A stretch of DNA of 64,000 nt from Sphingomonas sp. AR_OL41 (GTDB lineage Bacteria; Pseudomonadota; Alphaproteobacteria; Sphingomonadales; Sphingomonadaceae), in NCBI RefSeq assembly GCF_029911635.1, contig NZ_JARYTI010000008.1, positions 62,001 through 126,000 of the forward strand, read 5' to 3'. The position numbers were made by a program, and so were the translations under genes. The notes below the pieces were generated by a model. That model was not told the DNA's origin and did no database searches. It saw nothing but the letters and a program-made list of their open reading frames with translations. Within the stretch, counting starts at the first letter, position 1. Every line of letters starts with the position of its first letter. Of this stretch, positions 2,165 to 44,757 are shown piece after piece.

Positions 2165-3614
2165 TGAAACACACCGTCTTGGTCATGGACATTTCCCGAA
2201 CGGCAAAACGCACGCCCTCGCGCCCCATATTGCCCCTTTTTGCGCCGCCGAACGGCATCGCGTCGAGCCGGTAGTCGGTCGAATCGTTGATCATCACCCC
2301 CGCCGCCGCCAGCCGCCGCACGGCGTGGAGCGCGGTGCGCAGACTTTCGGTGAAGATCGCGGCATGGATCGTCTCGTGCGGCGCATTGGCGCGGTCGATC
2401 GCTTCGTCGAGATCGTCGAACGGGAAGAGGCTGACCACCGGCCCGAATGCCTCTTCGCAGACCAGCGTCGCTGCATCGGGTGGGCTCTCGATCACGGTCG
2501 GCGCGAACAGCGCTCCATCGTGCGTCCCGCCGGCCAACACACGGCCACCCATCGTACGCGCCTGCTCGACCCGCCGTGCAAGCCGCTGAGCTTCGGCGAC
2601 GCCGATCATCGGCCCCACCTGCGTGTCGGGCGAAGACGGATCGCCAACGATCAGATCCTTGGTCCGCGCGACCATCCGCTCGGCAAAGGCATCGAAGCAG
2701 GTCGCCGCGACATAGATGCGCTGCACCCCGATGCAATTCTGCCCGGCCGCCGAAAAGGCGCCCGAGGCACAAGCCGCCGCCGCCTTGTCGAGATCGGCAT
2801 CCGCCGCGACGATCACCGGCGAGTTGGCGCCAAGTTCCATCGCCAGCCGCTTCGTGCCGGCCTGCGCAGCAATCCGTTGGCCCGCGCGCCCGCCGCCGGT
2901 AAACGATACCATCGCGACACCGGAATGACCGACCAGCGTCGCCCCGAACGCCTCGCCGCGCCCGGTCAGCACATTGAGGGCCTCGGGATGCAACCCGACC
3001 TCGATTAGCAGGTGCGCGAGCATCACCGCCACCAGCGGCGCCTGCTCCGCCGGTTTGAGGATCACTGCATTCCCTGCAGCGAAGGCCGGGCCGAGCTTGT
3101 GGCAGATCAGGTTGAGCGGGTCGTTGAATGGCGTGATCGCCACCACGACTCCGACCGGCTCATAAAGATAGAAGCCGCTGCGCCCCTCCCCGCCCGCCAT
3201 GCTGTCGAAGGCGAGCGTTTCCCCCGCGAGCCGCACCGCCTCTTCGGCGGATAACCGCAAGGTGTTGACCGCGCGCCCGACCTCTCGCCAAGCATGGCCG
3301 ATCGGCTTGCCGGTTTCGCGCATGATCGCCTCGGCGAAGCGCGGCGCATCCCGCGCCAACGCGTCCGCCGCGCGGTGTAACAGGCGCGAGCGTTCGCCGC
3401 TGCTCCAGCCGCGCATCACCGCGGCGCCGCGCTGCGCGCTGCCGACCGCCGCCAAGGCGTCGGCTTCATCGGCGGCCGCGACGTTGGCCAGTGTTTCACC
3501 GGTGAAAGGATTGGTGACTGTCATCGTCTGCGCAGCCGCACGCCACGTACCACCGATCAGCAGCGTATGTGCCGTTCTTGCGGCCGTTACAGAGGCCGGC
3601 ATGGCAATGGTCAC
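2154..3614 (-). CDS. Aldehyde dehydrogenase, NAD(P)-dependent
   Basis: Cytosolic aldehyde dehydrogenase of the ALDH superfamily, 486 aa, oxidising an aldehyde to its acid. The catalytic set is complete: Asn164 in TPFNDP, the cofactor lysine 187 in ILKPAE, Glu260 in MELGANSP and Cys294 in AAGQNCIG. The ATG at 3614 overlaps the stop of the upstream TPP enzyme by 4 bp (ATGA). The pairing with a TPP-dependent enzyme fits decarboxylation of a 2-oxo acid followed by oxidation of the aldehyde. The exact substrate is not determined by the sequence. Confidence 0.9.
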   Translation of the reverse strand: MTIAMPASVTAARTAHTLLIGGTWRAAAQTMTVTNPFTGETLANVAAADEADALAAVGSAQRGAAVMRGWSSGERSRLLHRAADALARDAPRFAEAIMRETGKPIGHAWREVGRAVNTLRLSAEEAVRLAGETLAFDSMAGGEGRSGFYLYEPVGVVVAITPFNDPLNLICHKLGPAFAAGNAVILKPAEQAPLVAVMLAHLLIEVGLHPEALNVLTGRGEAFGATLVGHSGVAMVSFTGGGRAGQRIAAQAGTKRLAMELGANSPVIVAADADLDKAAAACASGAFSAAGQNCIGVQRIYVAATCFDAFAERMVARTKDLIVGDPSSPDTQVGPMIGVAEAQRLARRVEQARTMGGRVLAGGTHDGALFAPTVIESPPDAATLVCEEAFGPVVSLFPFDDLDEAIDRANAPHETIHAAIFTESLRTALHAVRRLAAAGVMINDSTDYRLDAMPFGGAKRGNMGREGVRFAVREMSMTKTVCFNAA

Positions 3615-5236
3615 GGCTTGTCCTTGCGCAGCACGAGCCCGTCATATTCCCGGCTGTCGACCAACGCCTCGACGATGCGCGGCCCATCGGCGGCAAATGC
3701 CTCAACCAGCGCTGCGCGCAACGCCTCCGGTGTCGATGCCGTGGTGACCGGCACACCGAACAGCGACGGCCCACCGATCGTCCCTTCCTCACGCACCGGC
3801 GTGCCGTAGATCGGATTGTCCTTGCGCTGTTGCTTGATGCGGATCAGCGCGAGATCGTTATCGGTCAGCACCAGGATGACGATCGGCAGTTTTTCGCGCA
3901 CCGCCGTCGCCAGCTCGCCGACGGTCATCAGGAAGCCGCCGTCGCCGACCACGGCGCATACCGCCTGGTCGGGCCGGCACAACTTTGCGGCGATCGCGGC
4001 CGGCAGGCCGAAGCCCATCGCGGACCAGCCATTGGTCATGATCTGCAAACCAGGTGCCGGTGTCTCCCATTTCTGGCCGATGAGGTGGGTATGCGCCCCG
4101 ACATCGCACGTCATGATGCCGTCCTGTGGCAAGACCTTGCGCAACACATCCAGAACGCTACACGGCCCCATCGCCCCGGCCGACCCCCGCATGCGACGGA
4201 ACATCGCCGTCTTGCGCGCGGCAACCTCCGCCAACGCCCAGTCCTTGCGTGGCACCCGCAGCGCCTCCAGCGAGGCGAGGCCTGCGGCGATGTCGCCAAC
4301 GACCTCGGCGACCACCGGGAAACGAGTGCGATCGATATCGACCGGAGCGATATCGACGCTCGCGAGCGACAGGCCGTCGCGCATCCAGGACTCATAGTTG
4401 AACTCGACCGGGTCGTAACCGATCGCCACCACCAGATCGGCCTCGACATGGGTCTTGCCGACCTCGTCGCTCAGCGCATGGAACAGGACGCCGGCATAAT
4501 TGGGGTGACTTTCGGGCAACATGCCCTTGGCCATCGGCGTCAGCACCACGGGCAGGCCGAAGCGCTCGGCGAGCGCCGCGATACGGCCCTCGATGCCGAG
4601 CCGCGTCGCGCTGAGGCCGATCGCCAATAGGGGCTTGCGCGCTGCACGAAACGCGGCGACCAGTGCCTCGATTTGCGCCGCATCCGGTGCAGGCGACACG
4701 GGTTTGGAAGGCGCGATGTCGCCGTCACCTGCCATCTCCGCGCTCAAGCCGACGGGCAGGCCGATATGCACCGGCCCCGGCCGGCCCTCCAGGGCGACGG
4801 TTGCTGCATCGGCCAGAATGGCATCGACATTCGCGGCATCGAGCCTCGTCGTCTTCTTGGTGATCGGCGCGAACAATGCCTGGTGGTCGATGCCCATCTG
4901 CACGACGCGGCCGCGCATCGGCGCCGCCATCTCGTCGGTCAGTGCGATCATCGGCGAGCGATCGAGCAAGGCGCTACCGACACCCGTCGCCAGGTTGGTC
5001 GCGCCGGGCCCGAACGTGCCGAAGCACACCCCTGGCACGCCAGTGAGCCGGCCGCACACATCGGCCATGAAGCTCGCCCCGCCCTCGTGACTGGTCAGCA
5101 CGAAGTCAATGCCGTCCGTTTCGCGGAGCGCTTCCATATAATCGACCCAGCCACCGCTCGGCACGCCGAACACATGGCGCACGCCCATGTCGCGCAAGCT
5201 ACGCACGACTTTCCGCGCGACCGTCTCCTGGCTCAT
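3611..5236 (-). CDS. TPP-dependent acetolactate synthase/2-oxoacid decarboxylase-like enzyme
   Basis: Thiamine-diphosphate enzyme of the acetolactate synthase/benzoylformate decarboxylase superfamily, 541 aa. It starts with the pyrimidine-binding domain (HVFGVPSGG, and the activating glutamate at 51 in TSHEGGASF), followed by GTFGPGATN. The pyrophosphate-binding motif lies near residues 430-460 (GDGGFLMTVGELATAVREK followed by TDNDLALI). There is no regulatory small subunit nearby, which argues against a dedicated branched-chain acetolactate synthase. It is the first gene of the four-gene operon, and the 2-oxo acid it handles is unknown. Confidence 0.8.
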   Translation of the reverse strand: MSQETVARKVVRSLRDMGVRHVFGVPSGGWVDYMEALRETDGIDFVLTSHEGGASFMADVCGRLTGVPGVCFGTFGPGATNLATGVGSALLDRSPMIALTDEMAAPMRGRVVQMGIDHQALFAPITKKTTRLDAANVDAILADAATVALEGRPGPVHIGLPVGLSAEMAGDGDIAPSKPVSPAPDAAQIEALVAAFRAARKPLLAIGLSATRLGIEGRIAALAERFGLPVVLTPMAKGMLPESHPNYAGVLFHALSDEVGKTHVEADLVVAIGYDPVEFNYESWMRDGLSLASVDIAPVDIDRTRFPVVAEVVGDIAAGLASLEALRVPRKDWALAEVAARKTAMFRRMRGSAGAMGPCSVLDVLRKVLPQDGIMTCDVGAHTHLIGQKWETPAPGLQIMTNGWSAMGFGLPAAIAAKLCRPDQAVCAVVGDGGFLMTVGELATAVREKLPIVILVLTDNDLALIRIKQQRKDNPIYGTPVREEGTIGGPSLFGVPVTTASTPEALRAALVEAFAADGPRIVEALVDSREYDGLVLRKDKP

Positions 5237-5312
5237 TCCACCTCCGCTACTCTGCCTTGGCGTTCAGGTAGAGGGAGATGGCGGCGGGCAAAAATACCTC
5301 TCCGAGGCTGCC

Positions 5313-5495
5313 TTATGATGATTCGGTTATAACTGAGCCGACGTTACCGCTATGGGTCGCAGCAGTAAGCCGCCGAGCCCCCATTAACGCGCGACGCTTT
5401 TCCAACAGAATTCCGCTTCGATAGGCCGCTTCAGTTTTATCTTTGACGGCATGCGCCAAGGCCGCTTCCGCCAGCTCGCCCGGATAGTTATCCGG
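5313..5495 (-). pseudogene. Tyrosine integrase remnant, catalytic C-terminal end
   Basis: Reading the minus strand from about 5495 to the stop at 5313 gives NYPGELAEAALAHAVKDKTE followed by AAYRSGILLEKRRALM. This is the final part of a phage or island tyrosine recombinase: the box with LAH, then the catalytic Tyr in AAYR and a KRR.LM tail. The frame closes with a stop upstream (near 5508), so no complete gene exists. It marks a decayed integration junction just outside the TPP/kynU operon. Confidence 0.65.
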
Positions 5496-5571
5496 GCTGC
5501 GTAAGTCTCAAAGAGTCAAGATAGTCCGACCACTCCTGCATCATCCGCACGCGCTCATTCCCGCAATGGTA
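5488..5571 (-). pseudogene. Second integrase remnant, extreme C-terminus
   Basis: On the minus strand, NERVRMMQEWSDYLDSLRL ends at a TAA at 5488. It resembles the end of the intact integrase at 26029-27258 (EERVAMHQWWSDYLDQL), but it is a different copy and stops resembling it a few residues upstream. It abuts the first integrase remnant in another frame, so two different recombinase ends are stacked here. Confidence 0.55.
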
Positions 5572-6789
5572 ATCGAAACCAACGCTGTGATGGCGCGCGC
5601 GATGGCAACCCTAGCTGCTCGTGAAGTGCCGCCCTCTCAACCTTCACGCTGGGACACCCAGGAGGAAGCGCGCTTTGAGAACGCGAGGGAAGCGGATGCT
5701 CTCGGGCTTGCCGAGGATCGCGCCGACGAGGATCGGAGAGAGGCGCTAAAGGCCAACGGTGAGCGCTGGAAGCTGCGCCTGCGCCAGCCCGTAGAAACGC
5801 TCTCGCCCGACGAGGCCGCCCTCCAAATCACGCGCAAAGACGAGGCATACGACCTCATGGTTGCCAACGAAGCATTGGCTAATCTTCGGGCACGACACGC
5901 ACGGGAACCCCAGCCCGCTCAACCCCTGTCATTGGCGACCAGTGGGAGCGGTGTTTCGATTAGCGGCTTGTTCGAACGCTATGCAGCGCAGGACGGCATC
6001 CGTTCCGCTACGGTTACCCTATCCGAGGGGGACGCGTTGTCGTCCTCGGCGGCTCGCATCTGGAGCCATATTTCGGACCTATCACGCATTATCGACAAGG
6101 GCGATACGTCAGTCGGTATCCCGCCCTACAACGGCGGTCAATTTGCCAGCGACGGCGCGTCCCTGCTCGATAAGATTCGCATTCCCGATAGTGTCACCGT
6201 CGGCGCGCCGCTGTCGTTCATCGACCATCATCTCCACGCCGGTGATAGTTTGTTCGGACTATGGGTGCGTGACGCAATCGACAAAGCCGGAAAGCTCGGC
6301 GGCGAACTCCTTTGGAACGAAGCCCTTCGCAACGCCCAGCGCTCGGCCGAAGCGATGAAGACAATCGAAGCCTTAACTGATGTCGAGATTGCGGAAGCGC
6401 ATCGATCGGCGGCGATGTATCAGGATGTGGAGCTGATGACTGGCGAACTCGACGGTTTTGTCAGTTTCATGAACGCCCTCGATTGGTTGAACCTCAACCC
6501 GCCGTGGGACCGGATCAAGCTACAGCAGGTCGAATGGTTCGCCGCGCGGCGACCGGAAATCGCCGCTGAGCCGCGCGCCGCAGATCGTAAGCAACGCGTC
6601 GATGAAATGGTCGCGTTGGGTAATTCGCTTGCCGCCGATTTCCTCATTGCTGAGCAACGGGCGAACGACACGCTCCGAATGGCTCGATATAGCAGCGGAA
6701 AATCGTCGAAGGCCCCCGAAACGGGGAAAAAAATTCCGGCGCCGTCGGACCACTACCCGTTATTGAGCAGCGGCGATATCAACCTCTAA
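5566..6789 (+). pseudogene. Chimeric remnant: integrase N-terminus joined to an Eco57I/PglX-type DNA methylase with deletions
   Basis: One open frame of 407 aa made of pieces. Residues 1 to about 148 look like the N-terminal and core-binding part of a tyrosine integrase (acidic/Arg-rich helix, ending in SISGLFERYAAQDGIRSATV). From about 150 the sequence matches the layout of large adenine methylases of the Eco57I/PglX kind: DKGDTSVGIPPYNGGQF, then FIDHHLHAGDSLFG, then directly NPPWDRIKLQQVEWFAARRP (motif IV), and it ends at YPLLSSGDINL. Motif I and the stretch between HxLxxGDSL and NPPW appear shortened, and the protein stops where intact relatives continue. It is therefore probably inactive, although it is still open. 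Family assignment is from recall of motifs. Confidence 0.6.
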
Positions 6790-7303
6790 GTGACGGAGGC
6801 CGTGGCCGCCCCGTTTAGCCGATCGCTTGGGGCAGTTCTCTACGGGCTCTTTCAACGCAGGAGATCAGCGAATCTAGGGGCCGCATGGGCGCGACCCGAG
6901 CTAGGTCCGTCGTCTACCTATCGGTTTTTCCAGGATAATATTTGACCTGTTCCTCCAAGTTCGGGTCCCACTTTTTACAGGAAAGCCGCATTTGGCGATG
7001 CTGAGCGAACCTTCATCGCGTCAGTCATGCCGCGCCATCGACAAACAGGGCGACCAAGCGTCGGTTGATGTAATAATTGTTCCGGCCAATGTGCTAGCGC
7101 TCGCAGGACGGCAGGCGTCTCCTCAACCCCCGGCGGCGGAAGCACGGGAATCGTGTAGCTTGCCTTCAGCATTTGGCGGATTCCCATGGAACGTTATGCC
7201 GATTATTTTGCATATCGGCGAAGACGTGTAAAGAAAATCGCATTTTCTTATCACGTTTTTCGAACGTGTAAAAATTGGAGCGTAAAGCTCTCAATCGCTG
7301 GAA
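6790..7303. other. Stretch without a recognisable gene
   Basis: About 510 bp following the methylase remnant. Only short spurious frames occur. I see no domain, RNA gene or clear repeat. The position between gene fragments suggests degraded island DNA. Confidence 0.5.
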
Positions 7304-8052: not shown

Positions 8053-9006
8053 TCAGTTGACTGAGCGGACGCGGTTTTGCTGCTGCCCCAGATCGATTGC
8101 ACCATCGGGCGTACGGATACTGGCGGTAATTACTTGCCCGTCGCGCAGATACTGCGGCCGTTTCAACTGGCCCTTCATGAACATTGCGAAACGCCGCGCG
8201 GGCGAGAGGAAGCCGGCAATTGCCTGCACCGTTGGCGATGGCGGACGCAGCGCGACGCCACCTGGCGTTCCGGTCGCGATGAGATCGCCGGGGGCAAGAT
8301 CCATGATGCAGGATAGTTCTGCCAGCGTTTCGGCTGGCTTGAAGATCATGTCACCCGCCTGGCTACGCTGCCGTTCCTCGCCTTCGACAGCCAGCACCAA
8401 TTCCAGCTCGCTCCAACGCGCTAGTTCGGCCGCTGTGGGCAGCACTAGCCACGGGCCGGTCGGGCCGAAAGTGCGATAGCTTTTGGATTTGTTGAATTGC
8501 ATATGGCTGATCTGCACGTCGCGCGCTGTCACGTCGTTGACGATGACGAGGCCGCCGATCCAGTTCGCAAGCGTGGCCTCCGTGATGATCTCAGGCCCGG
8601 TGAAGCCGCGCTTGAGCACCAGACCAAGCTCGATCTCGTAATCCAAAAGGCGCACGTGAGGCGGGCGGATGATATCGGCATCGGCCGGCACGATGCACGA
8701 AGCGGCCTTTGTGAAAATCACATTATTGACAATGACTGCCGGATCGCCGCCCACTTCCTTCACATGGCTAGCATAGTTGGTAGCCTGGCAAATGAACTGA
8801 GCATCCTGCGTGACGGGGCTCATGATACGGTCCGCTATCACCGCTTCGCCTTCGGTCACGGCGCGGGCCGCATCATCCGGCCCACCCTGTTCGAAGAACG
8901 CGCGGGTCGTGGGATAATCGCCGAAAAGGCGGTGTAGACCGTGCGGGCTGTCTACCGCCCAGACGACGCGACCGGCAGCTTCGACGCGAGCGACGTTCAG
9001 GGCCAT
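8053..9006 (-). CDS. Fumarylacetoacetate hydrolase (FAH) family hydrolase
   Basis: Metal-dependent C-C hydrolase of the FAH superfamily, 317 aa, likely splitting an acylpyruvate or similar ring-cleavage product. The divalent-metal site is visible: Glu124 and Glu126 in DYEIELGLVLKRG, and Asp158 in VNDVTARDVQ. The ATG at 9006 is preceded by GAGGAA. The reading frame is open further upstream but into the previous gene. It lies 10 bp after the fused hydroxylase-dioxygenase, so it probably hydrolyses that enzyme's product. It is the last gene of the TetR-controlled module. Confidence 0.88.
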   Translation of the reverse strand: MALNVARVEAAGRVVWAVDSPHGLHRLFGDYPTTRAFFEQGGPDDAARAVTEGEAVIADRIMSPVTQDAQFICQATNYASHVKEVGGDPAVIVNNVIFTKAASCIVPADADIIRPPHVRLLDYEIELGLVLKRGFTGPEIITEATLANWIGGLVIVNDVTARDVQISHMQFNKSKSYRTFGPTGPWLVLPTAAELARWSELELVLAVEGEERQRSQAGDMIFKPAETLAELSCIMDLAPGDLIATGTPGGVALRPPSPTVQAIAGFLSPARRFAMFMKGQLKRPQYLRDGQVITASIRTPDGAIDLGQQQNRVRSVN

Positions 9007-9016
9007 GGTGGATTCC

Positions 9017-11629
9017 TCATTTCGTCCAGGGGCGGGATGGCGCGCTGATCGCGCTGAGCAGTCGGCGCAGGCGGGCGACGTCAAGCTCCGGGCTCTGGCG
9101 GACGTTTCGGATGGCGGTGACGATCAGGGCGGGCGTGATTTTCGGTTTCTCAAAATCTGCCGGGACCGGTGGCCCCCATTGATAAAGGCTGCTGGCGGTC
9201 AACTGGCTCCAGCCGGTGGGTACATCTGCAGAGAGCAGGTCCCCATCGGCATAATGTTCCAGCTTATCGCCGACCGGGTCACGCCAATAGTCGAAGATCT
9301 GGCTGCCCAGTATATGCCGGCCCAAGCCCCAGGCATGGCGCCAGCCTTTGGCTTGAAGCCATTCCTGGCCCAGTGCCACGTCATCGAGATCGATTACCTC
9401 AAAGGCGGCATGGCTAAAGCCGTTTGTAACATTCTGCGCGACGACCACTGTGTGATGATCGGCCGGCTCGGTCCCGCGATCGCAGCGCATGAAGGTGAGC
9501 GCTGGATCACCCGCCGAAAGATATTGCACGTCGGATGGGATGAGACCGAACGTCTCAATATACCAGCGTGCGGTGGCGAAGAAATTCACGGCTCCAAGCA
9601 CACAGTGGCCGGGGCGCAGCACAGTTGCGGGCTGTAGCGGTGCGCGGGCAAAATCATTTATCCGGTCCAGCCGCTGCGATGTGTTGGTCGGGGTGGGAGC
9701 ACGCACCGGGTCTTCGGCAATGCTTGCCTGGCCTGCCACTGCCCACACCTGAAATCCGGCAGGATCGGTGAGCCGCACGTGGCGGCCGCCGCCGGGCAGA
9801 TCGAGCGGTTCGATGGTCGATGCGCCGGGCAGGCGCGACAGGGCAGCAAGATCTGCGTCATCCCGCACACGCAGGGCGATGCCAATGAAGCCGGGCTTCT
9901 TCGCCCAAACGGTCACATGCGCCGGACCTGGCCCCCGGGCAGAACGCATGACCAGCTGGTCAGGCCGGCGCTCGGCGCGTTTCAGGCCAAAATCCACCAG
10001 GAAGCGTTCCATCACGTCAAGATCGGGCCGTGCAAATATGACGAAGGCGAGGTCCTGTGCCTTGGTGACCGGCTGTGTGGTCCGGGCCAGGCGAGAATCG
10101 TGCGGTGTCATGGCTTGGGGTCCATTGTTCAGGGAGAGTGCCGTGGCGAGCCAACCCAGTTGTGCTCCCGCGGCATCGGGCGTCAGCACGTCGGCAATGA
10201 AGCGATCGGGCCGCACGATAGCGATGCGCCCTTGTCCGATCTGTCTGGACAGCGCCGTGCTATCGGTCTTGATCAATCGCGCGCCCAATGTTGCGAGCAG
10301 AGCGCAATCTGCGGAGTGCAGCCCACTGGCTGGATCGGCACCTACGCCCAAGGCCACCCAACCCGGGCCGATCAACTCATCGAGCAACACGCCGTCCACC
10401 TGCGGTTGCACCAGCATGTGGCCGGCGGCGTTGGTCTTACCCCTTATGGCACCGCCCGCAAGGCGCGGGCGCGGTAGCAGCCCGCCGCGATTCACATGGT
10501 CCCGGTGTCCTGGCACCAGGTGCATCGCGGCGATCGATAGATCACGGACCGTCGCGCGCCAGCGGGTGGTCGGCATAATGGTCGCGCCCAGCTTGATGGC
10601 GAAGTCCGTCATTGCCTTGACATGCGGGCGGCGTTCCGTCTCATAGCTATCGAGCAGGAAATCGTCGGCGATCCCCCGGCGTACCATGTCAAGCTTCCAT
10701 GCAAGATTTTGCGCATCGCGCAGGCCGCCGTTAAGTCCCTGGCCGGCAAAGGGCGGGTTCACATGGGCGGCATCGCCTGCCAACAGCACGCGGCGTTCAC
10801 GGAAGCGATCGGCATAGCGGGCGTGGAAGGTATAGACGGTGGCGCGTTCGATAACGGAGCGGTCATTGGGGGCGTACCCGGCGATCAGCCGACGTACCGT
10901 TGCCTCGCGCTCCAGATCAGCGCTGGTCTCGCCCGGCAGTTGAAGAAACTCCCAGCGACGTCGCCCACGCGAAACGGGAAGCGTAAGCGCCGGACGGGCC
11001 GGATCGCAAAAGAACTGCATCTCGCGCACGCCATGGCCTTCGTCGATGCAATCCACGACCAGCCATTTTTCGGCGAAGGTATCGCCGCCAAAACCGATGC
11101 CAGCCGCATCGCGCACAAAGCTCTGACCGCCATCACATCCGATAACATATTCGGCCTCGGCCACATGTCGCTGGCCATCATTGCCGGTGAAGGCAACACG
11201 TGCGCCATTACCATCCTGGGTGAGGCCGGAGACGGTGGCGCCCATCCGCAACTCGACATGGGAGAAACGCGCAAGGCCGCCGCGCAGCACGGCTTCCATC
11301 TCGGGTTGATAGAAGCTGCCCAATTGGCTGTGACCATAAGGCCGTTCCGGCTTGCCCATGCGCATTAGTTCGCGGCCAGCGCCATTCAAATAGACAACCG
11401 GTACATCGCGTTCGAGGGCCGGTTCGAGCATGTGCAGTAGGCCGATCTTCTGGAAGAGACGCAGTGATTCGGCGTCATACGCAATGGCCCGCGGGACGGT
11501 GTAAGGTTCGGTACGGCGCTCCAGCACCAGCACGCGCGCACCGGAATTCCCCAGCAGGTTGGCCAGCATCAGTCCAACCGGGCCCGCGCCGACGATAATG
11601 GCGAAGGGGCGGTCCATACTGTCAGCCAT
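9017..11629 (-). CDS. Bifunctional FAD-dependent aromatic hydroxylase fused to extradiol ring-cleavage dioxygenase
   Basis: Single 870-aa frame with two enzyme units. Residues 1-515 form a class A flavoprotein monooxygenase of the PheA/TfdB/MhpA group: GAGPVGL at 14-20, IGCDGGQS near 163-170, and the second FAD motif LLAGDAAHVNPPF at 282-294, followed by GLRDAQNLAWKL. Residues 521-830 form a two-module vicinal-oxygen-chelate dioxygenase. The second module keeps all three metal ligands of type I extradiol enzymes: His675 (RPGHC), His740 (GFSH) and Glu791 (DKLEHY). The enzyme would hydroxylate a phenol and open the resulting catechol on one polypeptide. It overlaps the upstream MBL gene by 8 bp. 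No stop or frameshift is seen at the junction, so the fusion looks genuine. Confidence 0.88.
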   Translation of the reverse strand: MADSMDRPFAIIVGAGPVGLMLANLLGNSGARVLVLERRTEPYTVPRAIAYDAESLRLFQKIGLLHMLEPALERDVPVVYLNGAGRELMRMGKPERPYGHSQLGSFYQPEMEAVLRGGLARFSHVELRMGATVSGLTQDGNGARVAFTGNDGQRHVAEAEYVIGCDGGQSFVRDAAGIGFGGDTFAEKWLVVDCIDEGHGVREMQFFCDPARPALTLPVSRGRRRWEFLQLPGETSADLEREATVRRLIAGYAPNDRSVIERATVYTFHARYADRFRERRVLLAGDAAHVNPPFAGQGLNGGLRDAQNLAWKLDMVRRGIADDFLLDSYETERRPHVKAMTDFAIKLGATIMPTTRWRATVRDLSIAAMHLVPGHRDHVNRGGLLPRPRLAGGAIRGKTNAAGHMLVQPQVDGVLLDELIGPGWVALGVGADPASGLHSADCALLATLGARLIKTDSTALSRQIGQGRIAIVRPDRFIADVLTPDAAGAQLGWLATALSLNNGPQAMTPHDSRLARTTQPVTKAQDLAFVIFARPDLDVMERFLVDFGLKRAERRPDQLVMRSARGPGPAHVTVWAKKPGFIGIALRVRDDADLAALSRLPGASTIEPLDLPGGGRHVRLTDPAGFQVWAVAGQASIAEDPVRAPTPTNTSQRLDRINDFARAPLQPATVLRPGHCVLGAVNFFATARWYIETFGLIPSDVQYLSAGDPALTFMRCDRGTEPADHHTVVVAQNVTNGFSHAAFEVIDLDDVALGQEWLQAKGWRHAWGLGRHILGSQIFDYWRDPVGDKLEHYADGDLLSADVPTGWSQLTASSLYQWGPPVPADFEKPKITPALIVTAIRNVRQSPELDVARLRRLLSAISAPSRPWTK

Positions 11630-12728
11630 CCAGCTGGCTGAAGCGAACAGCGCTGCCGTCGAGCGGAATGGTAATCAGCATCCCGTCGCGCCCAATGGTG
11701 ACACCGTGCGGGCGCACCTCGTTCACCCCGCGCAGCCAGGGGGTCTTCAGGAATCCGAACACAAGCGGTGGCGCGATATGAGTATAGACCAGATCGCGAA
11801 CCCCGGCTTGGTTGGCTAGACGCGCGGCGTCCACCGGGCTGATGTGATACCGGCTGGTGTCTTTGAGCACGCTTGCCAGCGTCGTCTGACCGATGGCAGC
11901 GGCTTCACTGGCCATGACGTTCTGCAGATGATGGGCCTGCGCCTCGCTCACCAGCACATCCGCACCCTTGGCCGCACGCGCGAGACCGGCGTTGAACACG
12001 GTATCGCCGGTTATCACGACGGAATGGCCCTTGTAATCAAACCGGTAGGCAAAGGCCGGCGAGACCGGACGGTGATCGGCCTCAATCGCGGTGACCACAA
12101 CGCCGCCTTGATCATAGACCACCTGCGTACGCCCCGACGGCACATCACCAGGCTTCACGAAATCGGCCGGATGGGGGATCATCACAGCAGCTGCCAATGG
12201 CAGCATATCGCCGCCATGGCTGTGCAGGGCATGACGATAGTCGCGATCGAAGCTGTAGGCGAGGTTGAAGCCGGCCACCACCCGATCCACGCCGGTTGGA
12301 CCATAGACGTCGAGCGGGCGGGATCGGCCCTGCGCCCAGAGCTGCATGTTGAGATCGCCGAGTGCGCCGATGTGATCGGAATGGAAATGGGTGAGGAACA
12401 CCGCCTCCACCCTGGTCGCTGGAATGCGCCAAATAGCAAGATTCTTGGTCGATTCCGGTCCGATATCGACGATGAAAAAGCGGCCGCCAGCCACGACCAG
12501 CGCGCAAGCCTTTGCGGACTGACGTACTGGCAGCGGGCTGGAAGTGCCGCAAAGCAGGACGCGCAACGCATCATCGCTCGTTGGCAGCTGGCTTTGGCGA
12601 GCGAGCTGGCGGCGCGCACCAGCCGCAAACACCGCGTCCTGCAGCGCCGGAGACAGGGTGAAGGCAAGCCAGGCGACGAACGTCACCACGCCAAGGCAAA
12701 GCACCAACCATCCCAGCAACTTTTTCAT
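11622..12728 (-). CDS. Membrane-anchored metallo-beta-lactamase-fold hydrolase
   Basis: MBL-fold hydrolase of about 368 aa with an N-terminal hydrophobic segment (residues 4-25) that should place it in or outside the inner membrane. The zinc motif is THFHSDH near residues 113-119, followed by GDTVFN and a late His-containing strand (YTHIAPP), as in ribonuclease Z/arylsulfatase-like members of the fold. GTG 12731 and ATG 12728 are both possible starts; the ATG has GGGGAGG at good spacing. It is first in the TetR-module operon (MBL, fusion enzyme, FAH). A role in ester, lactone or sulfate-ester hydrolysis of the substrate is inference. Confidence 0.8.
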   Translation of the reverse strand: MKKLLGWLVLCLGVVTFVAWLAFTLSPALQDAVFAAGARRQLARQSQLPTSDDALRVLLCGTSSPLPVRQSAKACALVVAGGRFFIVDIGPESTKNLAIWRIPATRVEAVFLTHFHSDHIGALGDLNMQLWAQGRSRPLDVYGPTGVDRVVAGFNLAYSFDRDYRHALHSHGGDMLPLAAAVMIPHPADFVKPGDVPSGRTQVVYDQGGVVVTAIEADHRPVSPAFAYRFDYKGHSVVITGDTVFNAGLARAAKGADVLVSEAQAHHLQNVMASEAAAIGQTTLASVLKDTSRYHISPVDAARLANQAGVRDLVYTHIAPPLVFGFLKTPWLRGVNEVRPHGVTIGRDGMLITIPLDGSAVRFSQLDG

Positions 12729-12752
12729 CACTGCCTCCCCTCGCAGGCCAGT

Positions 12753-12781: not shown

Positions 12782-12797
12782 TTGACCGTTTGGTCAA
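12782..12797. promoter_or_regulatory. TetR-type operator palindrome 2
   Basis: TTGACCGTTTGGTCAA has 6-bp arms sharing TGACC/GGTCA with palindrome 1. The centre-to-centre distance is 29 bp, close to three helical turns. It lies 42 bp before the tetR start. Confidence 0.65.
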
Positions 12798-12838
12798 TAC
12801 CGCTTGACTCGGTGTCATGTGCTTGTCAGCCTCCGGCA

Positions 12839-13480
12839 ATGGCAAAAGCAGCGAAGCCGGGCAGTGAGGAAGGTCGTCGGCGCATCTTGGCTGCCGCACG
12901 TTCGGCCTTTGCTACCCATGGCTTTGAAGGCGCGAGCCTGCGCGCGATCAGTGTCGAAGCGGGTGTCCTACACACCGCCATGCTCTATCATTTTCCTTCG
13001 AAGGACGTGCTGTGGCGGGCAGTGATGGCCGATTTGTTTGATGCGGTAGAGGCGCGCTTCGCCGACGAAGCGGCGCGGCTCGCGGGCGCGCCACCCGACC
13101 TGCTGGCGCGGGCACTGGTGCGAAATTTCGTTTCCTTCTGCGCCAGTTGCCCGGAACTGCACCGCATCATGACGATCGAAGGCCGCAGCGACACCGATCG
13201 CCTTACCTGGCTCGTGGATCGCTATAGCCGCCGCCTGTTTGATGCAGTCAAGGCCATGGCGCCGGTGGCCAACCCACTGATCGCCGACCCCATCCAGCTC
13301 TACTATGCGATCATCGGCCTTTCCGCCTCCGTTTTCACACTGGCGCCGGAGTATCGCCGCTTGTCCGGGCGCGATCCGTTCGCCGAAGCAGAGATTACCG
13401 CCACGGCCGACCTTGTCGAGCGGTTGGTATTTGGACCTGCTGGCACCGGTTTGAGTAATGCTGACACAGATCCAACCTAA
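12839..13480 (+). CDS. TetR family transcriptional regulator
   Basis: TetR-type repressor of 213 aa when started at the ATG at 12839; the frame is open to a TTG at 12782 but that would lie inside an operator. The N-terminal helix-turn-helix is clear: RRRILAAARSAFATHGFEG, then LRAISVEAGV, then MLYHFPSKD. The variable C-terminal half should bind the inducer. It is transcribed divergently from the MBL/fusion/FAH operon, with two related palindromes in between, so autoregulation and control of that operon are likely. Confidence 0.88.
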   Translation: MAKAAKPGSEEGRRRILAAARSAFATHGFEGASLRAISVEAGVLHTAMLYHFPSKDVLWRAVMADLFDAVEARFADEAARLAGAPPDLLARALVRNFVSFCASCPELHRIMTIEGRSDTDRLTWLVDRYSRRLFDAVKAMAPVANPLIADPIQLYYAIIGLSASVFTLAPEYRRLSGRDPFAEAEITATADLVERLVFGPAGTGLSNADTDPT

Positions 13481-13603: not shown

Positions 13604-15031
13604 CTATCTAACCGGCGCTGGCACCATTCGCCGCTTCGCCACGCCGAAATGATCGGCCAAATCCTCTGCGCTGAACCCTGCTGTGAAAGATTCCGCGTCA
13701 AGCGGCAGCATTTGCGTACTCCACGAATCGTAAATCGTCTTAAGCGCCGTGAACCTCGCCGGCATTCGCTCCTTCAGATTTGCTCGTTCCAACGGGTCAT
13801 TGACGACGTCGAACAGAAAGGTTTGATCCAGTATCTTGAGGTATTTGTAGTCGCCAACGCGGCACGCCTGTTGATCGAGATTCAAGTACCGCCAGCATAA
13901 TGTTCTGGGAACCGGCTTGGCGCCCGCAAGCATCGGGCGGAGGTCCATGCCGTCGCTGGGGTAGGCCGGATCGGGACTACCACCTGCGATTGCCAGCAGG
14001 GTGGGCATCCAGTCCATGGAAATCATGACCTGGTCGCTGACTGCCCCCTTGGCAACATGACCAGGCCAACGGATAATCGCCGGAATTCGCAAACCGCCTT
14101 CGAGCAGCTCCGTCTTCTTGCCTGTAAATGGCCATGTATCGGAATACCGTTCGCCACCATTATCGCTGGTAAAAATAACAATCGTATTGTCGGCGATACC
14201 CTTTTCTTCCAGAGTCTTCAGGACACGACCGATCTGCAAATCCATCCGCGTCACCATCGCCGCGTATGTGGCGAGTGAACCGCCATCAAAGTCTTCCACA
14301 GCCAGCGGATCTGCCTTCGCCGCCAGGCGCTTCGACTCCGCCAGATCGTCGGGTCCCTCCCATGGCCAATGAGGAGCGTTGAAATGAAGGCTCATGAAAA
14401 AGGGCGCGGCACCCTTGGCAAAGTTGCCAATCATCTTGACCGCTCGATCACCAAGCAAGTCAGTAAGATACCCAGGCTGTTCCACGGGGCGATCATCGTC
14501 CCACAGATCCGGTCCGCGCCGCGAGCCATGCCGAAAATAGTCAAGCGCGCCGCCGCGAAAACCCCAGAAGTGATCATAGCCGCTCTTGAGCGGCCCATAT
14601 TTCGGCAACTGACCCAAATGCCATTTACCAATCAGCGCTGTGGTATAGCCCTGCTTGCGTAGCAGCGAGGGCAAGGTTGGATGTTCTGGTGGCAAGCCGA
14701 CATCGCGATTGAACAAGGGCTCTTCCAGACCAATCGCCAAACGATTCTGATACCGCCCGGTAATCAACCCTGTCCGCGTTGCCGAACATACAGCCGAATT
14801 CGCATATGCCTGCAGGAAGCGCATGCCGTCCTTCGCAAGCCGGTCAATCGCGGGCGTCCGATACTCGCGCCGCCCGTAACAACTGACATCGGCATATCCC
14901 AGATCATCGGCTAGGATAAATAGGATGTTAGGCTTCATGCCGGAGGGCCGAGCAGCGACGGGCATGCCCGCCGCCGCCATCGCACCGAAGGCTGCTGACG
15001 ACTGCAATACTTCGCGTCGGGTGACCGCCAT
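13604..15031 (-). CDS. Tat-exported arylsulfatase-type sulfatase
   Basis: Type I sulfatase of about 475 aa, hydrolysing a sulfate ester in the periplasm. The N-terminus carries a twin-arginine signal (TRREVLQSS followed by an Ala-rich core). The metal-binding ADDLGYAD is near residue 41. The formylglycine site reads C-S-A-T-R-T-G (Cys82), with Ala where the consensus CxPxR has Pro. KWHLG (near 135) and TSDNGG complete the active-site set. It lies 54 bp downstream of the TonB receptor on the same strand, so uptake and desulfation are probably co-expressed. A formylglycine-generating or anaerobic maturase is not in the window. Confidence 0.85.
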   Translation of the reverse strand: MAVTRREVLQSSAAFGAMAAAGMPVAARPSGMKPNILFILADDLGYADVSCYGRREYRTPAIDRLAKDGMRFLQAYANSAVCSATRTGLITGRYQNRLAIGLEEPLFNRDVGLPPEHPTLPSLLRKQGYTTALIGKWHLGQLPKYGPLKSGYDHFWGFRGGALDYFRHGSRRGPDLWDDDRPVEQPGYLTDLLGDRAVKMIGNFAKGAAPFFMSLHFNAPHWPWEGPDDLAESKRLAAKADPLAVEDFDGGSLATYAAMVTRMDLQIGRVLKTLEEKGIADNTIVIFTSDNGGERYSDTWPFTGKKTELLEGGLRIPAIIRWPGHVAKGAVSDQVMISMDWMPTLLAIAGGSPDPAYPSDGMDLRPMLAGAKPVPRTLCWRYLNLDQQACRVGDYKYLKILDQTFLFDVVNDPLERANLKERMPARFTALKTIYDSWSTQMLPLDAESFTAGFSAEDLADHFGVAKRRMVPAPVR

Positions 15032-15085
15032 CACATCATACTCCGAGCTGGCATCGAGAATGGACCTTCCGGCACGATCGGATGA

Positions 15086-17557
15086 TCAGAAACGAAAGCC
15101 GATCTGCAGATAGGCTTCACGCGGGCGCGCGACCGTACCATAGGCCGAACCGGATGCCGATGAGAGCACCTTCGTTGTGAAGTACGTCGCGTCGAACAGG
15201 TTTCGGGCGCCAACCGCGGCGCTCCAGCCGCTTCTCGGAAACGAGTAGCTAATTCGGGCATTTGCGACAGCGAAACCGGGCTGCTCGATAATGGCGTAAT
15301 TCGCAACGCTGTTGCTGTCAGAGCTTTCGTAATGAACGTCGAATTCGCTGTCCACGCGCCCTCCATTGGCGAGCTCGAACTTCTTCGTCAGCTGTCCGTT
15401 GAGCTGCCATGCTGGTCCTGGCAGGCGACTGGCGGTCGTGATGTTGACGACAGCATTTGTGCCCGCGCTTGACTGGGTGCCCGGGGCAACCTCTGTAAGG
15501 GTCTTGTTGGTGTAACCTACAGAAACGCTGGCGGCAAAGCCGCTGCCAAGGATGGCACGCGCCTCACCCTCAAAACCGGTAAAATGCGCGTTGGCCAGGT
15601 TGAGCGTGAAACCCGGCAGATTCGCAACGGTCGCAGTTACCTGAATGTCGCGGTAGTTGATCCGGAACGCCGCCAGATTCAGAATAAGATGCCGGTTGAA
15701 CAACGTCGACTTAACGCCAGCCTCATATGAGGTCACATATTCGGGGTTGAACGACGGCAACGGGGTCGGCAACCCGCCAGGAAACCGCGCAGCAAAACCT
15801 CCGGCCCGATAGCCTTCGGAATAGGTGCCATAGATCAGCAGATTATCGGTTGCCTGCCATGCGATATTGGCCATCGGCGTCCAGATCTTCGATTGCTGCG
15901 TACCGCTGCCGTTCAACGCCGCCCCTACTGCACGAAGCTGCGAAACATTGTAGTCCTTGAAATCATCCGTGTAGCGAAGGCCACCGGTGATCTTCAACCG
16001 GTCGGTTACCGCCAGCGTTGCCTGGGCGTACGCCGCTTTCGACGTATTATTGATAAAGCGAGACGTTGTCTGGAAATATGGCAATGTCGGTGCAAGTGCC
16101 GGCGCGAGCGCCGCCGGAATGTCGCCTGGCGTCAGCAGGTCGACTGCCTCGTCACCCTTTTCCCTGAAATAATAGAGACCGACAACATAATTAAGCCGTC
16201 CGTGGAAGGCATCGCCGACCAATTGAAACTCTTGTGACAATTGGTTCTGCCGATAGGGAACATTATTATTCTGAAAAATAACGTATGGCGTCAGATCGAG
16301 GTCACTATAAAATATCGTATCGAATTTCCGATACGACGTGATCGATTTAAATGTTCCGATCGCCGACTGCAAAGCAACAGTTGCTCCGAAACCAGTGACA
16401 TTCAACACGTTTGTTGGAATAATTTTCTGACCGGACTTATCATACCAGACAGAATTATTGCCTGTTGTTCCAGCAAGCCATGTATTACCGTAGCATGTCA
16501 GACTATTGTTACGAAACGTCGCATCACTGGCACAGCGCGGCGCATCAACCGAGATGTAAGGAATCTTGGCCGTTGCCACGGGCCCTGCCCCCGAATTGAA
16601 GAACGTCGAATCGCTGCCGGTAGGCGCCGTACTTGTGGTGGAAACACTACCAAGCTGCAGTCCGACAATCGCCGCTGGAGGGTCGCGGCGTTCGGTATGG
16701 TCGACCGACAAATCGATCGTCAGATTATGGAAGGGTTGGTACCGAAGCGCGGCACGGCCAGCCCACATGCGCTCGCCGCCGAGCTTGTAGTCCCTGTACT
16801 GCAACGCATCGACATACCCATCGCGGTGCCGGTACATGCCAGATACACGCAATGCCAGATTGCTGGCGATCGGGACGTTTAACGAGGCTTGGACGCTATA
16901 GAACGCGCGCGATCCGCCCGACAGGTCGACATTGCCGCTGAACTTGTCCGTAGACGGCGCCTTTGAAATGACGCTGACAGCACCGCCGATCGTATTGCGA
17001 CCAAACAGCGTACCTTGCGGGCCGCGCAGGACCTCGATCCGCTCGACATCGGCGAGATCGAGCACGCTACCCACTGATCGGCCGAGATAAACGCCGTCCA
17101 GATATACGCCGACACCGGGGTCGGTGTTGATCGTAAAATCGCTTTGCCCGATGCCGCGGATGTTAATGACCGGGGTAAAGGTTGCGCCCGAGGTCGCACC
17201 TCCGGTCTTGAATACCACGTTCGGGGCGATGTCATTGACAGTCGCCAGGTCAACAGAGCCGCGCGCCGCAAGATCCGCGGCGTTCACGGCCGTAATCGCG
17301 ATCGGCGTTGATTGGAGGTTCTCCGACCGCTTGCGCGCTGTGACGACGATATCGCCAATCCCGTCATTCGTTGAAGCAGGCGTGGCGTCCTGCTTGGCGA
17401 CGAGGCCTTGCCTGGTGACGTCGCTATCCGGCGTCGATTGCGCTTGGGCACAGAATGGGGAAAAACCCAGCAACATGGCCCCACAGAGTAGCGGCCACTT
17501 GTTCAGCGCGCCGGTAACCGGATTGATGCCGATGCGGATATCTGGTGCCTGTTGCAT
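15086..17557 (-). CDS. TonB-dependent outer-membrane receptor
   Basis: Outer-membrane active transporter, 823 aa from the ATG at 17557, which has GGGGAGGA upstream; the frame is open further upstream. A signal segment (LLCGAMLLGFSPFCAQAQ) is followed by the plug (IVVTARKRSENLQSTPIAIT, then GIGQSDFTINTDPGVGVYLD) and a long beta-barrel ending in aromatic-terminated QIGFRF. This is the subfamily common in sphingomonads for uptake of aromatic and other organic molecules. A 19-bp palindrome lies about 110 bp upstream of the start, and the sulfatase follows. Confidence 0.92.
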   Translation of the reverse strand: MQQAPDIRIGINPVTGALNKWPLLCGAMLLGFSPFCAQAQSTPDSDVTRQGLVAKQDATPASTNDGIGDIVVTARKRSENLQSTPIAITAVNAADLAARGSVDLATVNDIAPNVVFKTGGATSGATFTPVINIRGIGQSDFTINTDPGVGVYLDGVYLGRSVGSVLDLADVERIEVLRGPQGTLFGRNTIGGAVSVISKAPSTDKFSGNVDLSGGSRAFYSVQASLNVPIASNLALRVSGMYRHRDGYVDALQYRDYKLGGERMWAGRAALRYQPFHNLTIDLSVDHTERRDPPAAIVGLQLGSVSTTSTAPTGSDSTFFNSGAGPVATAKIPYISVDAPRCASDATFRNNSLTCYGNTWLAGTTGNNSVWYDKSGQKIIPTNVLNVTGFGATVALQSAIGTFKSITSYRKFDTIFYSDLDLTPYVIFQNNNVPYRQNQLSQEFQLVGDAFHGRLNYVVGLYYFREKGDEAVDLLTPGDIPAALAPALAPTLPYFQTTSRFINNTSKAAYAQATLAVTDRLKITGGLRYTDDFKDYNVSQLRAVGAALNGSGTQQSKIWTPMANIAWQATDNLLIYGTYSEGYRAGGFAARFPGGLPTPLPSFNPEYVTSYEAGVKSTLFNRHLILNLAAFRINYRDIQVTATVANLPGFTLNLANAHFTGFEGEARAILGSGFAASVSVGYTNKTLTEVAPGTQSSAGTNAVVNITTASRLPGPAWQLNGQLTKKFELANGGRVDSEFDVHYESSDSNSVANYAIIEQPGFAVANARISYSFPRSGWSAAVGARNLFDATYFTTKVLSSASGSAYGTVARPREAYLQIGFRF

Positions 17558-17664
17558 TATCGTCCTCCCCAACACGGCGGCAATTGGGCCGCGCAAGCGC
17601 CCTCTCCGGGGCGAGGACAAATTCATGGAGAAGGGTGGGGAAGCGAGCATCACCAATGTTCGAT

Positions 17665-17683
17665 GCGTCCGCCTGGCGGACGC
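17665..17683. promoter_or_regulatory. Palindrome, putative IclR operator upstream of TonB receptor
   Basis: GCGTCCGCCTGGCGGACGC is a perfect inverted repeat with 9-bp arms around one base. It resembles the elements at 18850-18872 and 20733-20752 (common core GTCC-N7/8-GGAC). Confidence 0.55.
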
Positions 17684-17782
17684 GAGGAGTCATGCATTAT
17701 TCCGACCGGGTTGATCCTTGAGTCTGCTGCGGCCTCCAGGCAGACTTGGTCGGAGCCCGTGGACATTGCCGAATTGATCGTT

Positions 17783-18754
17783 CTACGATCTCGCTATGGC
17801 GGCATCGAGCCAAGGGCAGTCGATCGTCACCGGCGCACGAACTCCCCGCGCTGCGGCATCCAGCCGCATATTACGCAGTTGCGACCGTTGCGGCTCGGGC
17901 AAATAAAGACGTTCATGTCCCCAAAAGCTCGGTCCATCGAATGTCTCGTGTGGCTCCCAGGTGGCAGGATCAATAACGCGTGCACCCCAACCATATTCGA
18001 CGAAGAAACCAGATGGTGTCTTCGCATAAAATGATGTCATGTAATCGTTGGTGTGTCGACCAAGCGTATAGGCAATCCGGCCATCTTCTAGTTGAGCAAC
18101 GTCATATCCCTGCCCGACATCATCAAGGCTGAACAGCTCGACCATGAAATGGTGAAACGATGCCCGGCCCGACCCCACCATCGCAAAGCTGTGGTGGCGT
18201 CCATTCAGATGGAAGAAATACAGCTTGACCGGAGCCAGACCGAAATCGGTAACGCGAAATCCGAGCAAATCCCGATAAAAGGGAAGCAGTTCGTCCACGT
18301 CGACGACGTTCAATACGACATGTCCCATGCCGAACGGGCCGGTCTTGAAGCCGGTAATCGGTCGTCCTGGCTTAAAGGGATCGGAAGCAATTTCCGGACC
18401 GTGAAACACCTCGATGCGGTTGCCCGCAGGGTCGGTGAACACAATTAACGCAGCAACCCGGCGCTCCTCTGCAAGAAGTCGCCCCCCCCAGCTTACCCGG
18501 ACGCCGGCAGAATCAAGGCGCGCCGCAAGCCGGTCGAGATCGACACGCTGATCGACCTCCCACCCCATAAAGCCCAGGCCATCGCCATCATCTGCACTCA
18601 CCACAAGACGCTGGACGCGGTCGTCCATGCGAAAGCTGCGCAGTTTGGACGTGCGATCAACCGGCTGCATGCCGAGCAAGCCGGTGGCAAATGATCCCCA
18701 GTCATCGAGATCGGTCGAGCGGACGCCGACATATCCAAGCGATTTCAATTCCAT
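17783..18754 (-). CDS. Type I extradiol dioxygenase (BphC/HsaC-like)
   Basis: Ring-cleaving dioxygenase of the vicinal-oxygen-chelate superfamily, 323 aa from the ATG at 18754 (GGAGAGG upstream). It has two modules, as in 2,3-dihydroxybiphenyl dioxygenase. Metal ligands appear as His145 (GMGHVVLNV), His201 or 202 (SFHHFMVE) and Glu253 (FFVEYGWG), with the second-sphere GRHHSFA at 186-192. It would open a catechol between a hydroxylated and an adjacent carbon. It is the second ring-cleavage enzyme of the cluster and probably works with the FAD hydroxylase at 20922-22409. Confidence 0.9.
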   Translation of the reverse strand: MELKSLGYVGVRSTDLDDWGSFATGLLGMQPVDRTSKLRSFRMDDRVQRLVVSADDGDGLGFMGWEVDQRVDLDRLAARLDSAGVRVSWGGRLLAEERRVAALIVFTDPAGNRIEVFHGPEIASDPFKPGRPITGFKTGPFGMGHVVLNVVDVDELLPFYRDLLGFRVTDFGLAPVKLYFFHLNGRHHSFAMVGSGRASFHHFMVELFSLDDVGQGYDVAQLEDGRIAYTLGRHTNDYMTSFYAKTPSGFFVEYGWGARVIDPATWEPHETFDGPSFWGHERLYLPEPQRSQLRNMRLDAAARGVRAPVTIDCPWLDAAIARS

Positions 18755-18849
18755 CGCAGCCTCTCCAAGGATTTGGTCGCGCGAGCCGTAACTCGCATCA
18801 TCAAACGCCCAATTGGATCGTTCAAATCCTGTCTCAAGTCCCGTCACTG

Positions 18850-18872
18850 CACCGTCCGCTGCGTGGACGGTG
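18850..18872. promoter_or_regulatory. Palindrome upstream of extradiol dioxygenase, putative IclR operator
   Basis: Arms CACCGTCC and GGACGGTG (8 bp) flank a 7-base centre, 96 bp upstream of the dioxygenase start. It lacks a following T-run on the minus strand, so it is less likely to be a terminator for the upstream oxidoreductase. The core GTCC-N7-GGAC matches the element at 17665. Confidence 0.45.
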
Positions 18873-18878
18873 GGCGCA

Positions 18879-19859: not shown

Positions 19860-19951
19860 GATCCCTCTCGCGGGCGGCGCTAACGGACAAAACACAGGCA
19901 ACAAGCATTGATGACGCCGCGTCCGCTCACCGGACAGCGCAACTCACCGCC

Positions 19952-20719: not shown

Positions 20720-20732
20720 GTGGCGACGGTGA

Positions 20733-20752
20733 GCGTCCCGTCAGGCGGACGC
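20733..20752. promoter_or_regulatory. Palindrome in iclR/hydroxylase divergent promoter
   Basis: Arms GCGTCC and GGACGC flank 8 bases, 14 bp upstream of the iclR start. On the reverse strand it reads GCGTCCGCCTGACGGGACGC, which shares GCGTCCGCCTG and the closing GACGC with the TonB-receptor element. Confidence 0.55.
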
Positions 20753-20921
20753 AAGCGCATTTGAGCATTGCTCGCAACGTCAGCACCCCGCAATCCACTT
20801 TCCAAGGCAGCGGAGGTTCCTGTGACCATCGGCTTGCAGGCAGGGGAAGGCTGATGCTGAACAGACTGTTGGGTCGGCCGCTGCTGCTGGGCGATAAATG
20901 CTCAGGATCCTGGAACATCAA

Positions 20922-24639: not shown

Positions 24640-24677
24640 GAACGGCTGCGCTTCACTGAACGAAGGGAACGTTTGCG

Positions 24678-27258: not shown

Positions 27259-27479
27259 CAATCCCGAATCGAACGGTCTTGATCGAAAGCTACCCCCTAT
27301 TTCCTCGAAATGGCCCACCGGGCCACCGTCTGAAACGGGCCACCGCTGGCCCGGGCCATGGCCCACTTTTGGACGGGATCGACTGAAATCTGATCGGACA
27401 CCCTCGGACAAAACCAGGGAGAAAATGGCAGATTTCTGCCGTTTTGTCGATGGTTCTGGGGCGTCAAGAGACGGGTAAA

Positions 27480-44749: not shown

Positions 44750-44757
44750 GTAGCCCG

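Follow-up and report, generated by a model that had tools for sequence, protein, structure and literature searches.

Does a single natural polypeptide carry out two consecutive steps of aromatic degradation, ring hydroxylation and ring cleavage? The question is raised by a gene in a 64,000-nucleotide stretch of Sphingomonas sp. AR_OL41 (contig NZ_JARYTI010000008.1, positions 62,001 to 126,000; hereafter the window, to which all coordinates refer). Extradiol cleavage after hydroxylation is a central sequence in aerobic aromatic catabolism, and the compound formed between the two steps is often toxic or self-oxidizing. At 9017-11629 the minus strand of the window contains one intact open reading frame (ORF) of 870 codons with zero internal stops, enclosed in a stop-to-stop frame of 885 amino acids. 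It had been predicted from the sequence to encode a FAD-dependent aromatic hydroxylase (FMO) followed in frame by an extradiol dioxygenase (EDO), an arrangement borne out by the intact ORF and by same-frame fusions in four other genomes. We consider it likely that the fusion is a genuine bifunctional catabolic enzyme, which would hydroxylate its substrate and then perform meta-cleavage on the same chain, with an FAA-family hydrolase acting next.

Residue numbers follow the 870-residue count from 11629 throughout. The start codon is likely Met5 (ATG at 11617), since this codon lies 4 nt past the stop of an upstream MBL-fold hydrolase gene, matching the 4-nt spacing of the apparent starts of the fused relatives L081 (GTG) and L082 (ATG); the gene would then span 9017-11617 on the minus strand and encode 866 amino acids. 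Pfam and NCBIfam matches, FAD motifs, and fold assign residues 5 to 485 (10175-11617, minus strand) to a class A, MhpA-like FMO, while a structural model, its fold matches, and invariant residues assign residues 507 to 870 (9020-10111, minus strand) to a two-module type I (VOC) EDO. A fast-evolving linker, recognizable by its substitution rates and low model confidence, covers residues 486 to 520 (10070-10174, minus strand). The original prediction had the order of the halves right but set their border at residue 515; FMO homology stops near residues 485 to 500, and the EDO begins at Met507.

The architecture is found in other genomes. A profile scan headed by the fusion across the contigs of 84,980 species yielded 491 confirmed loci, of which the best 80 were inspected for fusion (the full-fusion reference tilts these 80 toward loci with both halves, and the other 411 lie outside the inspection). 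Four of the best 80 encode both halves in a single ORF: L081 and L082, both Sandarakinorhabdus metagenome-assembled genomes, at 82% identity to the window fusion; L100, from Porphyrobacter UBA7686, at 77%; and L083, from Alphaproteobacteria REEB488, at 68%. In the inspected loci, the phylogenetic spread, whose mapping had been proposed with the original prediction, comprises a few alphaproteobacteria, with five fused genomes including that of the window. No stop or frameshift occurs at the junction in any of the five fused genes, and three of the four fused relatives were found again in whole-genome data, a set that does not include the genome of L081. Among the best 80 loci, separate tandem genes run in the order FMO to EDO in 45 and EDO to FMO in 3; the FMO is encoded on the opposite strand in 9, and 19 show no FMO homolog at E values up to 1e-12 in the flank, the length of which varies by locus.

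By family criteria and predicted fold, the first half is a class A flavin aromatic hydroxylase. FAD_binding_3 (PF01494) matches residues 11 to 344 (E = 8.4e-64; 216.4 bits against a Pfam cut-off of 22). The FAD motifs, claimed from the outset to be intact, are all present, namely GAGPVG at 14 to 19, CDGGQSFVRD at 165, and AGDAAH at 284; presumably these serve as the GxGxxG, DG, and GD motifs of class A flavoprotein aromatic hydroxylases. The FMO half passes the MhpA-like NCBIfam subfamily model NF004829 (436.8 bits; cut-off 390) and reaches no MhpA equivalog cut-off in NCBIfam, the nearest being NF004831 (454.9 bits versus 546), with three other MhpA-named equivalogs falling further below their own thresholds. 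Fold searches with a full-length AlphaFold model group the first half with class A hydroxylases, among them PnpA (Z = 43.8), PHBH, 3-hydroxybenzoate hydroxylase, phenol hydroxylase, PieE, and HbpA.

Only FMO structures appeared among the top 50 matches listed for the full-length model, and the EDO half was therefore modeled and searched alone. Residues 507 to 870 form a two-module VOC domain (mean predicted local distance difference test [pLDDT] 91.7; predicted template modeling score [pTM] 0.91). This model matches 3b59 (Z = 34.6), homoprotocatechuate 2,3-dioxygenase (about 33), and the catechol 2,3-dioxygenase 1mpy (33.0); across 3b59 and the homoprotocatechuate and catechol 2,3-dioxygenases, Z is 33 to 35 and the root mean square deviation 2.0 to 3.0 over 278 to 313 residues. 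Matches to HsaC and BphC are lower (Z = 28 to 30). Pfam Glyoxalase matches residues 673 to 787 (E = 1.1e-07). The three metal ligands were located correctly in the original prediction: H675, H740, and E791 are invariant in 6/6 rows of one alignment and, together with H725 and the second-shell residues H726, H772, and Y781, in 23/23 EDO rows of a larger one. In a profile alignment with 1mpy, the three ligands pair with His, His, and Glu, and the three second-shell residues with His, His, and Tyr; we take the former to be a 2-His-1-Glu metal site and the latter to be the acid-base His/His/Tyr. A LigB-type (class III) second half, as in MhpB of Escherichia coli, was considered and rejected, as Pfam gave a Glyoxalase match instead and no LigB match at E values up to 0.1. 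By its fold and metal site, the second half is a complete type I (VOC) EDO with predicted ring-cleaving activity.

The gene is embedded in what is predicted to be one operon (8053-12731) joining the FMO and the type I EDO with an FAA-family hydrolase. An FAA-hydrolase-family gene (FAAH; 8053-9006, minus strand; PF01557, E = 3.3e-48) lies 10 nt past the fusion stop, the MBL-fold hydrolase gene (11622-12731, minus strand; PF12706, no NCBIfam cut-off reached) is directly upstream, and a divergent TetR regulator gene lies beyond the latter (12782-13480, plus strand, exact start uncertain; PF00440). All four fused relatives share the [TetR]-MBL-FMO::EDO-FAAH layout, their orthologs being 63 to 80% (MBL), 67 to 84% (FAAH), and 60 to 79% (TetR) identical to those of the window. 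That the two halves catalyze consecutive pathway steps, as first proposed, gains weight from the unfused homologs, many of which are operon neighbors. Six plasmid regions with unfused FMO and EDO genes (from Microvirga, Burkholderia, two Streptomyces, Prescottella, and Sphingopyxis, the FMO of the last being only a distant relative) contain FAAH in 6/6 cases, a TetR regulator in 5/6, and an acyl-CoA or acetoacetate-CoA ligase in 4/6.

From the intact ORF, its conservation, the operon, the residues and motifs, the predicted folds, and the selection described below, we infer activities, their order, and a substrate class as follows. Drawing on NAD(P)H and O2, the N-terminal FMO would hydroxylate a phenolic acid, our best guess being a resorcinol-type or alkylphenol-type compound, and so yield a catechol or trihydroxy ring. 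The C-terminal VOC EDO, with Fe(II) or Mn(II) bound by H675/H740/E791, would cleave this ring meta to a hydroxyl, and the FAA-family hydrolase from the next gene would split the ring-fission product. The family chemistry of FAAH would suit a ring-fission product of the 2,4-dioxo type, such as a trihydroxybenzene would give. The tether may raise local capture of the oxidation-prone intermediate, which would not need a sealed tunnel; by analogy with the HcdABC enzymes discussed below, the hydroxylation product would be cleaved before oxidizing.

Trees of 34 EDO rows and 32 FMO rows, drawn from a chosen subset of loci, speak to the origin of the fusion. The five fused FMO halves form one clade (support 100/99) whose sister group consists of the unfused FMOs of L103, L096, and L105. 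In the EDO tree, the fused EDOs and that of L097 form one clade (100/99), next to another clade that includes L103, L111, L096, L105, L108, L109, and L030. Since the EDO partners of the sister FMOs also fall beside the fused EDO clade, the two halves were probably already partners before they fused. In the unfused L103, the FMO stop and the EDO start overlap as ATGA; in L096, L084, L086, L088, and L101, a stop lies between two in-phase frames. Open frames in phase occur in 23 of the 45 tandem unfused FMO-to-EDO pairs. The fusion probably arose from such a tandem pair, a widespread arrangement, either because the FMO lost its stop or because the frame shifted by 1 nt where the genes meet; a single stop loss or small indel could be enough. 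Among the five fused genes, which have 0.43 to 0.78 synonymous differences per site, the ratio of nonsynonymous to synonymous substitution (dN/dS) is 0.09 to 0.20 for the FMO and 0.06 to 0.10 for the EDO, and 0.25 to 0.62 for the linker (each from 9/10 pairs, as one ratio in each region, 3 of 30 in all, could not be computed owing to saturation). Both halves are under purifying selection, and the linker is freer to vary.

One detail of the linker stands out. At codons 501 to 510, GGA503 and ATG507 alone are identical across all five fused genes, although synonymous divergence in the linker is high (0.44 to 0.78 differences per site). GGA503 (10121-10123, minus strand) is Shine-Dalgarno-like and lies 9 nt before the in-frame ATG507 (10109-10111, minus strand), the presumed ancestral EDO start, which overlaps a +1-frame TGA as ATGA; model pLDDT is below 50 at residues 501 to 505. 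Out of 65 invariant Gly columns in the five fused genes, that of GGA503 is the sole one that is GGA throughout, and the standalone EDO of L097 has a Met, likely its own start, aligned with Met507. The anti-Shine-Dalgarno (anti-SD) energy at the GGA503 site is -3.0 in the window and -6.4, -5.8, -7.4, and -5.5 in the four fused relatives; it is -5.6 to -7.6 for the starts of five unfused EDOs, of which three are annotated and two were set at the first start codon of their ORF. In-frame positions that score as well as the GGA503 site make up 41% of the window gene, 25% of L083, and 4 to 9% of L081, L082, and L100, and GGA accounts for 2 to 25% of Gly codons in the fused genes, the highest share being that of L083. 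The signal was noted post hoc, at codon level, in five related sequences. GGA503...ATG507 is arranged as a ribosome site and start inherited from an ancestral EDO would be. The gene may therefore also yield free EDO, and the signal suggests that the former EDO start may remain in use, at least in some relatives. It is a more speculative, and in our view rather unlikely, proposition that the internal start is kept under selection and that one gene thereby supplies a bifunctional chain together with free EDO, giving an EDO oligomer with substoichiometric tethered hydroxylases that hand an autoxidizable trihydroxybenzene straight to cleavage.

Several observations weigh against a genuine bifunctional enzyme. 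In the EDO tree, L097 (Hyphomonadaceae) groups with L083 (96/88), and at its positions 3278-7167 an EDO gene without an adjacent FMO half is followed by FAAH, divergent from an AMP-binding enzyme gene; either L097 lost its FMO half, which would mean that the fusion is dispensable, or L083 fused on its own, and the label "fused" accordingly needs two changes on that tree. The fusion is also rare. With an ORF of more than 850 amino acids containing both halves counted as fused, 2/397 genomes drawn from the family carry it, that of the window and one Sandarakinorhabdus genome; the single fused case in 119 genomes from the family of Sandarakinorhabdus G1197 lies at the same contig place as the latter (G1197 and G1456 are entries for one genome). 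Samples of 396 genomes from the order, 385 from the class, and 398 from the phylum gave no further fused frame (EDO query; E limits of 1e-20 and 1e-30), nor, beyond these two genomes, did the matches listed for 150 relatives; these samples overlap, and all scans except that of the 150 relatives queried the EDO half alone, at E limits from 1e-20 to 1e-100. Two long frames proved not to be fusions, as each has an internal stop and a separate EDO ORF: one of 723 amino acids in G048 (EDO ORF of 318 amino acids) and one of 1135 in the Porphyrobacter genome G1199 (308 amino acids). The fast evolution of the linker argues against a precise interface there, and the full-length model, with confident domains, leaves their mutual placement uncertain (pTM 0.65). 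Direct transfer of the intermediate, which the original prediction had envisaged, thus finds no support, and proximity is the modest reading, a tunnel being neither supported nor excluded by the model. Finally, the EDO half stays below every named NCBIfam EDO equivalog cut-off (BphC, HpaD, catechol 2,3-dioxygenase, and HsaC; best 43.7 bits versus 366), and 3b59, the nearest solved structure, is titled only as a Mn(II)-bound glyoxalase. One half might accordingly do something else, the VOC half being no ring-cleaving dioxygenase or the FMO no aromatic hydroxylase, but we regard this as improbable: the ligands and second-shell His/His/Tyr are invariant and align with those of catechol 2,3-dioxygenase, FMO, EDO, and FAAH recur together in all six plasmid regions, and HcdB of the comparable hcd operon is a working EDO (PMC6222606).

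Apart from function, the fusion itself might be spurious or without consequence. The +1-frame ATGA at the junction looks like an ordinary overlap of separate genes, as would be expected had a sequencing or assembly error joined two of them, the outcome named beforehand as refuting the prediction; four other assemblies with the same-frame fusion at 68 to 82% identity, three of them found again in whole genomes, exclude this for practical purposes. A far more serious possibility, to which we give perhaps one chance in three, is that a neutral stop loss in a translationally coupled pair left two independent enzymes between which the intermediate diffuses, the tether being incidental. Unfused tandem pairs are frequent (45 of the best 80 loci) and about half of them are in phase, so that a single stop loss could suffice; the linker is poorly conserved, and the EDO of L097 exists without an adjacent FMO. 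Yet the fusion has been kept in several genera at 68 to 82% protein identity and at a synonymous divergence of 0.43 to 0.78 per site, with a clean junction in 5/5 genes. Similarly plausible, though again not what we favor, is a dual-product gene in which ribosomes also start at GGA...ATG507, EDO exceeds FMO in mixed complexes, and the fusion anchors some FMO on an EDO oligomer. The two codons conserved in an otherwise diverged linker, the unique all-GGA column, the anti-SD energies of four relatives close to those of unfused EDO starts, and the aligned Met of L097 all point this way, whereas the weak site of the window, the ordinary site of L083 in a gene where GGA is not uncommon, and the post hoc choice of a signal from just five related sequences do not; Gly503 could instead cap the final FMO helix. 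A bifunctional hydroxylase-dioxygenase remains the reading we prefer.

How does the fusion compare with known systems? E. coli MhpA and MhpB, first offered as the comparison, are separate proteins; MhpA holds as a relative of the FMO half at the level of NF004829, but MhpB is not an appropriate comparator, having a fold other than VOC. HppA/HppB, OhpB/OhpD, and HcdA/HcdB are better suited to the comparison. Like the fusion operon, HppA/B/C of Rhodococcus globerulus PWD1 and OhpB/D/C of Rhodococcus sp. V49 combine a hydroxyphenylpropionate hydroxylase, an EDO, and a hydrolase, but as separate proteins, and they are set beside the fusion by description only. We take HppB and OhpD to be type I EDOs and HppC and OhpC to be ring-fission hydrolases. 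Other counterparts are unfused tandem operons of Microvirga ossetica (L059), Burkholderia multivorans (L060), and Alphaproteobacteria REEB414 (L103), in which the same families are adjacent at 37 to 55% identity to the matching halves, L059 and L060 also having FAAH and TetR genes as in the fusion operon; these differ from the fusion in having two genes, with short gaps in L059 and L060 and the ATGA overlap in L103. L081, L082, L083, and L100 carry the same fusion and operon as the window without essential difference.

A further counterpart is from Pseudomonas mandelii 7HK4. There, HcdA, HcdB, and HcdC perform hydroxylation, meta-cleavage, and hydrolysis in turn; cells with HcdA only gave a reddish product that was absent when HcdB was coexpressed, and HcdB activity was lost on aerobic purification (PMC6222606). 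The same study states that HcdABC have no substantial homology to earlier characterized enzymes for similar substrates and cites HppA, HppB, OhpB, and OhpD as functional relatives (PMC6222606). The hcd genes resemble the fusion operon in encoding a class A flavin hydroxylase, a type I EDO, and an FAA-family hydrolase in adjacent same-strand genes, and differ in yielding three separate proteins, a comparison made by description and not by sequence. The view that hydroxylase and dioxygenase are separate in the usual pathways therefore agrees with the known operons of this kind (HppABC and HcdABC).

In openly licensed literature, judged mostly from titles and the openings of abstracts, we found no description of a fused flavin hydroxylase-EDO. 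The single chain is what is new; its two halves, the pathway, and the order of the genes all belong to known kinds. A natural, conserved fusion with unfused relatives as controls offers a system in which to ask if tethering alters leakage, uncoupling, or rate, and the fusion is a template for one-gene biocatalysts. Its junction shows a route from a tandem pair to one gene and hints that an internal start may outlive fusion.

Beside the fusion operon lies a second aromatic-catabolism set (13604-25922), comprising a sulfatase, a TonB-dependent receptor, a BphC/HsaC-like EDO (17783-18847), a zinc-binding dehydrogenase, an IclR regulator, an unfused FAD hydroxylase (20898-22409), two CoA-transferase subunits, a second FAA hydrolase, and an MFS transporter. 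One island thus bears both fused and unfused hydroxylase/EDO sets. The Pfam names of these neighbors indicate a catabolic island but no unique substrate compound. In Porphyrobacter UBA7686 (L176, 1-7999; L100, 1-8571), the same second-set genes adjoin the fusion operon, with orthologs of the sulfatase, TonB receptor, unfused FMO (52% identical to that at 20898-22409), CoA-transferase subunits, second FAAH, and MFS transporter; a 308-amino-acid EDO between receptor and FMO is 42% identical to the EDO half of the fusion. The fusion operon and the second set may belong to a single pathway, which perhaps begins with a sulfated phenol. A phage-type integrase ORF (26029-27411) close to where the island ends is a possible mark of mobility. 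Elsewhere in the window, adjacent kynureninase-like, aldehyde dehydrogenase, and thiamine diphosphate-dependent (acetolactate-synthase-like) genes form an unusual trio on the minus strand (902-5236), and at 40013-45187 a minus-strand ORF of 1724 amino acids lies opposite an antisense open frame of 1538 amino acids.

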